DNA of 64,000 bases from Geodermatophilus sp. DSM 45219 (lineage in GTDB: Bacteria > Actinomycetota > Actinomycetes > Mycobacteriales > Geodermatophilaceae): the NCBI RefSeq assembly GCF_900104025.1, contig NZ_FNIQ01000003.1:558001-622000 (forward strand), in the 5' to 3' direction. The notes beneath the pieces are model-generated. The model was not told the DNA's origin and ran no database searches. It saw nothing but the letters and a program-made list of their open reading frames with translations. Numbering within the stretch: position 1 is the first letter of the stretch; every line of letters begins with the position of its first letter. Of the stretch, positions 8,738 to 11,449 are shown piece after piece. Made by a program: the position numbers and the translations under genes.

Positions 8738-11353
8738 TCAGTTGGCCATGTCCACGAAGCGGCTGTAGTGGCCCTGGAAGGCCACGGTGACGTTGGCCGT
8801 GGGCCCGTTGCGGTGCTTCACCAGCATGATGTCGGCCTCGCCGGCGCGCGGTGATTCCTTTTCATACATGTCTTCTCGGTGGATCATCATGACCATATCC
8901 GCATCTTGTTCGATCGAGCCCGATTCGCGAAGGTCGGAGAGCATTGGCTTTTTGTCCTGCCGTTGTTCTGAACCACGATTCAGCTGACTCATCGCGATGA
9001 CAGGCACTTCCAATTCCTTGGCGAGCAGCTTCAGGGCACGGGAGAACTCCGAGACCTCCTGCTGACGGCTCTCGACCCGCTTGCCCGACGTCATGAGCTG
9101 CAGGTAGTCGATGACCACGAGCTTGAGGTCGTTGCGCTGCTTGAGCCGCCGAGCCTTCGCCCGGATCTCCATCATGGTCATGTTCGGGGAGTCGTCGATG
9201 TAGAGCGGCGCATCGGCGATCTCGCCCATCCGGCGGGCCAGCTTCGACCAGTCCTCGTCGGAGAGCGTGCCGGCGCGCATGTGGTGCAGCGGCACCTTCG
9301 CCTCGGCCGACAGCAGACGCATGGTGATCTCGTGCTTGCTCATCTCGAGCGAGAAGATGGCCGCCGGCAGGTTGTGCCGCACCGTCGCCGACCGCGCGAT
9401 GTCCAGACCCAGCGTCGAGTTGTGGGTGGGGATGAAGCTGCGGCCGGCCAGGAACAGGTGGTCCTCGGCGTCGACCTCGATGCACCGCACCGGCACACTC
9501 GCGACGGCCTTGACGTCAGTGATGAACCGGACGCCGCGGGCCGTGGACGCGCGGGCACCGCGTTCCTTGTGAGCGAGCTTCTTCCGCTCCAGCCGGAACA
9601 CCTCGTCATCGGTGCTGAAGGTGAGCGTGAAACAGGTGGACGACGCCTCGCTGCGGCCCCCGACACGCTTGCGCGTCACCCGCACCCGGTGGCCGAGGCC
9701 GGCGATGAGCTCGCGGGCATCCTCCGCCAGCCGTCGATTGGTCACCGCGAACTGCACGACGCCGCTCGGCGCCACCGTGCCGTCGGTGTCCAGCAGTCCG
9801 GCCAGCAGAGCGCGGCGCTGAGCCACGGAGCCCCGTAGGTAGGCCATCGGGATGTGCTTGTCCCCGAAGACGCCCAGGGTGCGCAGCAGGCCCTGCACGG
9901 TGCCGTGGTCGTCGCGGCAGGCCTGGCACTGCGCAGAGCCCGACGAGGGGCCGCCGCAGTCGGGGCAGACCGCCTGACGGCCGACGCCACCGCTGGCCCG
10001 CAGCCGGCCGCCGCACGTCTTGCCACAGGTCTGCACCTGCGACGTCTTCGGCACGAACGGCTCACCGCACATGGGGCACGGCCGGGCAGCGACGGCCGGC
10101 CGCGCCGGGAGCCGCAGCGCGTACCGCCTGTCGACACCCGTCGGCTCGACCACCAGGCCGTCGGCCTCGATGTAGACGGCGATCTCCGGGTCGTTGCTGG
10201 TGAAGTGCGCGGCGCGGGAGGTTCCGTCACCCAGCCACACGCCCAGCGCGTACGGCGGCAGCGGGAGGTCGGCCTGCGGCAGCTCCAGGGCCGCAGCGTT
10301 GGTCACCGAGTGGTTGAGGCGGGCGTCCTGAGTGGCGCAGCGGACGGTGCGGGCGATCTCCTCCGTCGTCCGCACCTCGGCGGACGTGCGCTGGGTGCGG
10401 CAGCCGTCGTCACCGGCGGCGGCAGCCCGGGCGGACCTGCGGCTGGCGCGGGTGTCGGTCAACCACTGGTGCTGGGCATCGGCCACGATCACCGAGCCGT
10501 CGGAGAAGTGCACCTCGTAGCACGGGCGCCCGGTCATGACCTCGGTCGCGGCGACGACCGTCGTCGGCCGCCCGTCCGAACCCATCACCTGGTCGCCGAC
10601 CGCGACCTCACCCATCGTCGTCCAGCCGGTCGGCGTCGCGATCGGGGTGTCGAGGACGAGAGCCTTGCCCACGCCAGGACGAGCGGCGATGACGACCATC
10701 TGGCCGGCCTGCAGACCGTTGGTCAGCTCGTCGAGGTCGCGGATGCCGGTGGGGACGCCGCGGGCGGTGCCGCCCCGGGAGGCGATGGCGTCCAGCTCGT
10801 CCATCGTCGGCTGCAGGACGTCCTCGAGGCGCGAGTAGTCCTCGCTCATGCGCTTCTCGGTGACGTCGTAGATCTCCTGCTGCGCACGGTCGACGATGTC
10901 GTCGACGTCGCCCTTGCCGCCGGCCGCGCCGTACCCCAGCTGGACCACGCGGGTGCCGGCCTCGACCAGCCTGCGCAGCACCGCCTGCTCGGCCACGATC
11001 GCCGCGTAGTAGCCGGCGTTGGCCGCCGTCGGCGTCGACTGGATGAGGGTGTGCAGGTAGACCGCACCGCCCATCTTCGACAGCTGGTCGGTGCGGTTCA
11101 GCTCGGCGGCGACGGTGATCGCGTCGGCCGGCTCACCCCGCCCGTAGAGGTCGAGCACGCAGTCGAAGATCACCTGGTGCGCCGGGCGGTAGAAGTCCGG
11201 CCCCGCCAGCACCTCGACGACGTCGGCGATCGCGTCCTTGCTCAGCAGCATCCCGCCCAGCACCGACTGCTCCGCCGCGACGTCCTGCGGCGGCTGCCGG
11301 TCGTAGGCAGGCGCCGTCGGGGTCGGTCGGCTGAAGTCGTCGGCCACCGCCAC
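8738..11353 (-). CDS. dnaB: replicative DNA helicase DnaB, intein-containing
   Basis: This is the hexameric 5'-3' helicase of the replication fork. From the GTG at 11353 it encodes 871 residues, of which about 456 are extein, the normal DnaB length. An N-terminal primase-interacting domain (to about 170) leads to a RecA-like ATPase. Its P-loop ARPGVGK-STLG is split by a 415-residue intein at residues 231-645. Walker B (VVIDYLQLM) and the RESGSIEQD motif follow. The start at 11353 has GGAGG seven bases upstream; GTG 11371 is the alternative. Codons 8852-9022 have strikingly low GC. The gene lies downstream of rplI but is separated by a terminator and its own regulated promoter region. Confidence 0.96.
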   Translation of the reverse strand: MAVADDFSRPTPTAPAYDRQPPQDVAAEQSVLGGMLLSKDAIADVVEVLAGPDFYRPAHQVIFDCVLDLYGRGEPADAITVAAELNRTDQLSKMGGAVYLHTLIQSTPTAANAGYYAAIVAEQAVLRRLVEAGTRVVQLGYGAAGGKGDVDDIVDRAQQEIYDVTEKRMSEDYSRLEDVLQPTMDELDAIASRGGTARGVPTGIRDLDELTNGLQAGQMVVIAARPGVGKALVLDTPIATPTGWTTMGEVAVGDQVMGSDGRPTTVVAATEVMTGRPCYEVHFSDGSVIVADAQHQWLTDTRASRRSARAAAAGDDGCRTQRTSAEVRTTEEIARTVRCATQDARLNHSVTNAAALELPQADLPLPPYALGVWLGDGTSRAAHFTSNDPEIAVYIEADGLVVEPTGVDRRYALRLPARPAVAARPCPMCGEPFVPKTSQVQTCGKTCGGRLRASGGVGRQAVCPDCGGPSSGSAQCQACRDDHGTVQGLLRTLGVFGDKHIPMAYLRGSVAQRRALLAGLLDTDGTVAPSGVVQFAVTNRRLAEDARELIAGLGHRVRVTRKRVGGRSEASSTCFTLTFSTDDEVFRLERKKLAHKERGARASTARGVRFITDVKAVASVPVRCIEVDAEDHLFLAGRSFIPTHNSTLGLDIARSATVRHNLPAAIFSLEMSKHEITMRLLSAEAKVPLHHMRAGTLSDEDWSKLARRMGEIADAPLYIDDSPNMTMMEIRAKARRLKQRNDLKLVVIDYLQLMTSGKRVESRQQEVSEFSRALKLLAKELEVPVIAMSQLNRGSEQRQDKKPMLSDLRESGSIEQDADMVMMIHREDMYEKESPRAGEADIMLVKHRNGPTANVTVAFQGHYSRFVDMAN
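8852..9022 (-). other. low-GC tract inside dnaB around the second DnaB intein site
   Basis: About 57 codons here average close to 50% GC by manual count, against more than 70% on either side. Codons otherwise rare in this window (TTG, AGT, AAT, TCA, AAA, CCA, TAT) cluster while the protein stays fully conserved. The tract spans the sequence RESG/SIEQD (junction 8917/8918), the insertion site of the Synechocystis DnaB intein. It looks like a converted or recoded patch. Confidence 0.8.
9419..10663 (-). other. DnaB intein, class 3-like, with LAGLIDADG endonuclease
   Basis: An in-frame 415-residue intein sits between P-loop Lys and Ser (C-extein +1 is Ser). It starts with Ala rather than Cys or Ser and ends in THN. 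The class 3 signature is visible: Trp67 in block B (ADAQHQWLT), Cys394 in block F (VRCIEV) and Thr413 in block G (IPTHN). Class 3 inteins use the block F Cys as first nucleophile. Two LAGLIDADG-type motifs (ALGVWLGDGTS, residues 139-149; LLAGLLDTDGT, residues 286-296) mark a homing endonuclease. Between them, residues 196-249 carry four CxxC-like pairs (CPMCG, CGKTC, CPDCG, CQAC), a probable zinc-binding module. Confidence 0.9.
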
Positions 11354-11449
11354 GGGAGGTCCTCCATCCACTCACGGCGCACCCGCGCACAGGCCCCGGC
11401 GTGATCGCCGGGGCCTGGTGGGGGAGCACCAGTACGCTGCACACCTGTC

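Follow-up and report, generated by a model that had tools for sequence, protein, structure and literature searches.

Silent AT-rich recoding at an empty intein insertion site of dnaB in Geodermatophilus sp. DSM 45219 and its relatives

The dnaB gene of Geodermatophilus sp. DSM 45219 carries a patch of adenine- and thymine-rich (AT-rich) synonymous codons around an intein insertion site that is empty in this allele. The gene lies at positions 8738..11371 (minus strand) of the 64,000-nucleotide stretch of contig NZ_FNIQ01000003.1 that was analysed, here called the window; on the same strand the patch extends over 8852..9022 and the insertion site, RESG/SIEQD (RESG/S), has its junction at 8917..8918. 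Comparison of dnaB alleles of the Geodermatophilaceae showed that such patches cluster at the two intein sites of the gene, and that those at RESG/S are found mainly in alleles which hold an intein at the other site, the P-loop site. We propose, as a reading with about an even chance of being right, that the patch is the mark of attack on an empty intein site, recoded alleles being presumably harder to home into and apt to survive or spread under endonuclease attack.

In the list of open reading frames (ORFs) the replicative helicase encoded by dnaB comprises 877 amino acids before splicing, with Pfam matches to DnaB, DnaB_C and LAGLIDADG_3. The guanine-plus-cytosine (GC) content of 8852-9022 is 0.497 (49.7%), the minimum over all 171-bp windows of the 64 kb (reached at starts 8849 to 8854), which have a mean of 0.742 and a standard deviation of 0.049; the next separate low-GC stretch is at 0.579. 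Of the 55 codons in the best-scoring run, 8852-9016, 24 end in A or T, as compared to 52 of the 823 codons elsewhere in the ORF. The reading frame is open across the patch, and the protein encoded in this zone is the commonest sequence of the family, with zero amino-acid change. These data bear out the first-pass annotation of this DNA, which had described a stretch of about 50% GC with clustered rare codons and an intact protein, spanning the RESG/SIEQD junction. Its claim that flanking dnaB exceeds 70% GC proved wrong on the coding-upstream side, where the adjoining dnaB sequence has a GC content of 0.62-0.69. The one resident intein, recognized by sequence, translation and LAGLIDADG_3 match, occupies the P-loop site (GVGK/ST) at 9419..10663 (minus strand); it has 415 amino acids, begins with ALVLDTPI and ends with THN. 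Its C-terminal extein junction (9418..9419, minus strand) is 501 bp from the empty RESG/S junction, and the distance of about 400 bp given earlier holds to the patch edge, not from junction to junction.

For the family comparison 112 genomes were searched, 106 of which gave a match. Four partial genomes (G061, G081, G097 and G098) were left out and 104 loci were taken from 102 genomes; 101 of these were parsed and three failed, and exclusion of six loci from distant genera (g5-g7) left 95 alleles of the core genera. Forty-one of these hold a P-loop intein and 22 hold an intein of 426 amino acids exactly at RESG/SIEQD, so that the link drawn earlier between the patch and a second DnaB intein site stands. 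The site is empty in the window allele while close relatives hold the intein there. An allele was called patched when the central GC content of third codon positions (GC3) was <=0.80 at RESG/S or <=0.85 at the P-loop site, both cut-offs having been set after the values were seen. By this measure RESG/S is patched in 14 of the 28 empty alleles with a P-loop intein, in two of the 45 alleles with neither intein and in none of the 22 occupied alleles (Fisher p = 7.9e-6 for P-loop intein versus none among the empty alleles, p = 0.019 for empty versus occupied). The mirror comparison, with patches at the P-loop site, gave six of nine empty alleles with a RESG/S intein versus four of 44 with none (p = 6e-4).

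A scan of 94 family alleles in windows of 25 codons, covering, where present, the exteins from a start 200 codons ahead of the P-loop site through to the end, returned 52 AT-rich windows. Thirty-two lie <=30 codons from RESG/S and 15 <=30 codons from the P-loop site; the remaining five are 31-45 codons from an intein site. The site concerned is empty for 28 of the 32 and 12 of the 15 windows, 40 of 47 in total. Clustering of AT-rich windows at the two dnaB intein sites exceeds chance. An explanation by codon constraint or by a conserved signal overlapping dnaB, which the first-pass annotation would have favoured if all relatives shared the low GC3 without any intein, has nothing beyond the local codon bias to speak for it: 43 of the 45 intein-free and all 22 occupied alleles are unpatched over a near-identical protein. 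Unless patched hosts alone need such a signal, these counts refute the explanation, which is close to untenable.

The RESG/S patches have a common haplotype. With bases reduced to purine/pyrimidine (RY) classes, which are insensitive to transition bias, the similarity of patches across genera is 0.654 versus 0.586 to unpatched alleles, a difference that none of 2000 within-genus label shuffles reached. Composition-insensitive markers, for example GCG at +5, CGG at -15 and TCG at -2, are common to several genera; the haplotype is found in six genera, and all six core marker codons are present in 10 of the 16 patched alleles. A codon-permutation test of the common haplotype was unclean, control alleles also lying above their null, and the RY test was used instead. 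The RESG/S recoding is of common descent and either moved between genera or was retained in scattered lineages. The P-loop patches have no common haplotype by RY similarity (0.554 versus 0.588), with a mutual similarity below that of all 2000 shuffles, and their recoding looks separate in each lineage. Empty P-loop sites with AT-rich synonymous patches but no common haplotype were observed in L189, L197, G028, G109, G051, G016, G004, G092, G043, G057, G029 and G080.

On a tree of 93 alleles built from dnaB outside the zones, rplI and ssb, with strong support on 26 of 90 inner branches, the minimum number of changes is 16 for the RESG/S patch with its 16 bearers, 20 for the RESG/S intein and 25 for the P-loop intein. 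Three near neighbours on this tree differ in state: G049 has both inteins, G051 has the RESG/S intein only and a patched P-loop site, and G048 has the P-loop intein only and a patched RESG/S site. In most of dnaB they diverge by 0-4 bases per 60 bp, but near the two sites the figure climbs to as many as 16. The patch of G040 and G048 is kept upstream and gives way, past about +6 to +13, to codons of the usual GC-rich kind; this sharp downstream end fits a conversion tract. Exchange of patches between genera of the family is supported.

The same haplotype in six genera, the sharp end in G040 and G048 and the AT-richness itself would also be expected if an unsampled family member of lower GC content had supplied the patches from its dnaB, and recombination near breaks induced by inteins had then exchanged them. 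Against this import stand the P-loop patches without a common haplotype, the different zone amino acids of patches in other families (see below) and the outcome of searches for a donor, and we consider it unlikely. With blastn, the best matches over most of the patch were 72% identical in phages, 78% in plasmids and 79% in 396 genomes of the phylum, other matches being short. The core pattern of the patch retrieved from viral contigs only two low-GC (0.34 and 0.37) DnaB genes encoding other proteins, and 44 viral loci found by protein were <=74% identical. In a search with the zone protein, among the best 120 of 7998 matches, many of them nameless, the named ones with >=97% identity belong to Blastococcus, Geodermatophilus and Modestobacter, and the best named outsider is Jiangella alba with 92%. 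In the collections searched, which are samples of public sequence, neither matching donor DNA nor foreign amino acids were found for an imported lower-GC tract. The zone amino acids are the family-commonest in 13 of the 16 patched RESG/S alleles; the variants of the other three (G084, G096 and G110) recur in 21 and two unpatched alleles, and the zone residues of all 16 also occur in unpatched family alleles. Gene conversion from a lower-GC donor, as suggested earlier, is thus unsupported. A dnaB-like match of 77.8% is found on an unannotated 1.35 Mb Arthrobacter replicon listed as a plasmid (L378, NZ_AP024648.1); plasmid match H21 is unannotated.

Co-conversion tracts, which derive from the donor of the element, remain beside homing introns and inteins. 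The patch resembles them as a tract around a homing site unlike the rest of the gene, and a further earlier suggestion was that an intein with lower-GC flanks entered RESG/S and was later precisely lost, leaving its footprint. The position is right, intein turnover is high, and an occupied allele of a distant genus (G066b, L201) has four of the six patch marker codons beside its intein. Unlike a donor-derived tract, however, the patch core is absent from the occupied core-family alleles, none of which falls to the GC3 cut-off and which have at most two of the six marker codons. Their cores are GC-rich, with on average 1.82 A/T-ending codons as compared to 1.40 in unpatched and 9.38 in patched alleles; patch-like codons lie outside the core, and the zone protein is family-type. 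Such a footprint is accordingly very unlikely. Co-conversion tracts are also mentioned in PMC12007492.

Synonymous recoding that would make the site resistant to a homing endonuclease is favoured among the three options raised at the outset. All 22 core-family copies of the RESG/S intein keep the first LAGLIDADG motif, and the one copy scanned against Pfam (from G049) matches Intein_splicing and LAGLIDADG_3. The retained motif together with at least 20 state changes on the tree makes attack by this intein plausible. In lineages which meet the intein, the endonuclease would cut standard empty alleles and copy the intein in, and alleles with accumulated synonymous changes would remain empty, their central target and repair flanks matching the donor too poorly for efficient homing. 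At RESG/S a single recoded haplotype would have spread among genera, probably as short conversion tracts, and P-loop sites and other families would have acquired their recoding independently; the window patch would be one such recoded allele. Patched alleles have a median identity to occupied alleles of 0.861 in the central 36 bp (0.861 in the window allele too) versus 0.972 for unpatched empty alleles, and of 86.7% versus 95.6% over 180 bp; the longest identical runs are 28/29 bp versus 50-51/78 bp. This lower identity is partly expected, since patches were picked for divergence. In Haloferax polB, homing drops from about 90% to 20% with shrinking flanking homology (PMC3024317), and we infer that long silent recoding would affect both target recognition and flanking homology.

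Engineered recoded alleles of an essential target are known from synthetic gene drives. The dnaB patches are like them in the silent recoding of an essential target and differ in being natural and bacterial. A possible though doubtful extension is that the recoded empty allele is itself driven: as an uncuttable repair template it might be spread by the nuclease of the intein, in short recoded tracts, between species, and so act as a natural anti-drive. The presence of the RESG/S haplotype in six genera, the 16 changes for 16 bearers and the abrupt downstream stop of the G040 and G048 patches fit this.

Outside the family 118 alleles were compared, after seven loci had remained unparsed, two duplicates had been dropped and nine of 127 had been excluded because the P-loop junction was not recognized (two of these are RESG/S-occupied). 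The sample is non-random, as many alleles were found by a search with this DnaB, which enriches intein-bearing alleles. Relative to mid-gene, A/T-ending codons at RESG/S are in excess by a mean of 0.126 in empty alleles with a P-loop intein (n = 65) versus 0.074 in those with none (n = 46; p = 0.006). The difference between empty alleles with a P-loop intein and the seven occupied alleles is not significant (p = 0.16). An excess >=0.25 was found in 10 empty alleles, nine of which have a P-loop intein; these strong patches include those of Cellulomonas avistercoris (L053), Janibacter hoylei (L048), Nonomuraea pusilla (L036) and Herbidospora cretacea (L051). When the stretch from the P-loop site to the end is considered, the window richest in AT falls <=13 codons from RESG/S in nine of the 10, L051 being the exception. 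In amino acids, the zone of these alleles differs from that of Geodermatophilaceae, and the patches are therefore taken as separate origins. A non-family allele with neither intein (L334, G540) has a very strong RESG/S patch, with 0.50 A/T-ending codons as compared to 0.03 mid-gene.

Several observations, besides the post hoc cut-offs, weigh against the proposal that recoded alleles resist homing. Half (14 of 28) of the RESG/S-empty alleles with a P-loop intein are unpatched. When all GC3 values at RESG/S are compared, the empty and occupied alleles among the 95 show no difference (Mann-Whitney p = 0.21), as would be expected if only some empty alleles are patched. At the P-loop site three of the 41 occupied alleles also have GC3 <=0.85, and the comparison of empty with occupied gives p = 0.14; in two of the three (G048 and G049) the AT-rich codons lie chiefly upstream of the intein. 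Phylogenetically independent pairs of patch versus other intein point in the expected direction (median p 0.125 and 0.375) but do not reach significance, for which their number is too small. For alleles of other families, the yes/no association depends on the threshold, with p = 0.010, 0.13 and 0.044 at an excess of 0.15, 0.20 and 0.25. Occupied alleles themselves may have been patched before: at least three A/T-ending codons are present in the outer zone of six of the 22, as compared to none of 43 unpatched intein-free alleles (p = 0.0009) and one of 14 unpatched alleles with a P-loop intein. We read these patch-like remnants as what is left after an intein homed into a patched allele and replaced just the central part of the patch, so that the putative protection would be partial or surmountable. 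Endonucleases tolerate single synonymous changes (PMC3024317; PMC10643990), and a target of 14-40 bp (PMC3024317) alone leaves a patch of 165 bp unexplained, the argument from flanking homology being our own extrapolation. Finally, the four-fold sites of the patches show an excess toward A and T, through transitions as well as transversions, while the GC-neutral change C>G is near background; AT-biased mutation would produce this pattern, which selection purely for divergence would not require.

The latter point agrees with a rival that needs no selection for resistance, and which we entertain tentatively: the patch may be a scar of break repair, repeated cuts and error-prone resynthesis raising the local mutation rate, with purifying selection keeping the protein and mutation bias lowering the GC content. 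It would account for the AT direction and the centring while assuming less about benefit. Compared to the unpatched consensus, the share of synonymous differences in patched RESG/S alleles is 0.70 over the six codons preceding the insertion point and 0.53 over the six that follow it, with an irregular plateau (about 0.34-0.56) between -36 and +23 and some excess beyond; P-loop patches have 0.67 and 0.62, and background from +24. At both sites the share peaks beside the insertion point, and the patches extend roughly 25 to 35 codons to either side of the intein sites. The lack of a common haplotype among P-loop patches and the separate origins in other families likewise suit a scar. The RESG/S markers held across genera fit exchange and not fresh mutation in each host, and in G040 and G048 the patch ends within a few codons downstream and continues upstream; both disfavour it. 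Also against it, a strand switch expected of deamination in single-stranded DNA (C>T before and G>A after the break) gave no signal at either site. At RESG/S the A-ending share of E/Q/K codons is above the T-ending share of D/N/H/Y/F codons on both sides (0.46 versus 0.23 before, 0.61 versus 0.42 after); at the P-loop site the values are 0.45 versus 0.33 before and 0.17 versus 0.30 after. A strand-coordinated deamination cluster was rejected, there being no switch from T-ending before to A-ending after.

The resistance proposed here would have a counterpart in the homing-cycle model (PMC3229294), in which X' alleles are less susceptible to homing and escape is costly since targets sit in conserved motifs, such that hosts hardly escape inteins. 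Like X', a recoded dnaB allele would be an empty allele altered at the target with reduced homing; X' is a model term, whereas here many synonymous changes leave the motif protein intact and extend past the target. The data suggest that long silent recoding does diverge alleles, and has done so repeatedly, at two different sites within a single gene. The mcm alleles of Haloferacales (PMC10643990) are similar in that intein sites are adjacent in a replicative helicase and some empty alleles resist one intein; that resistance was ascribed to a proline at +1 which blocks splicing rather than recognition, and no patch-specific residue occurs here. Mycobacterial DnaBi1 (P-loop) and DnaBi2 (H4 motif) probably occupy the same two insertion sites, as the motif names indicate, and DnaBi1 of M. 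smegmatis has no endonuclease domain (PMC7360933), unlike the P-loop intein of the window with its 415 amino acids and LAGLIDADG match. Full-text searches of open-licence literature returned no title or abstract opening that describes extended synonymous recoding at empty intein sites. If confirmed, the patches would represent natural gene-drive resistance with a signature that can be searched in any genome, and empty sites would preserve a trace of earlier attack by endonucleases; if they are repair scars, they would provide a natural measure of mutation around endonuclease breaks.

A search of the genus for other intein genes with PF14890, a profile that misses the P-loop intein of the window, matched dnaB RESG/S inteins in 11 of 26 genomes and gave five weak matches elsewhere, without a second gene for a test. 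These Intein_splicing-like matches, in long ORFs outside dnaB (G060:C176, G060:C133, G040:C18, G044:C312 and G064:C13), may be Hint domains of other proteins. The distant family members L198-L202 (genera g5-g7) have shorter RESG/S inserts of 846-1065 bp. The P-loop inteins of G060, G058, G062 and G032 are also shorter, with 293-303 amino acids as compared to 403-415, and are probably reduced in the endonuclease region.

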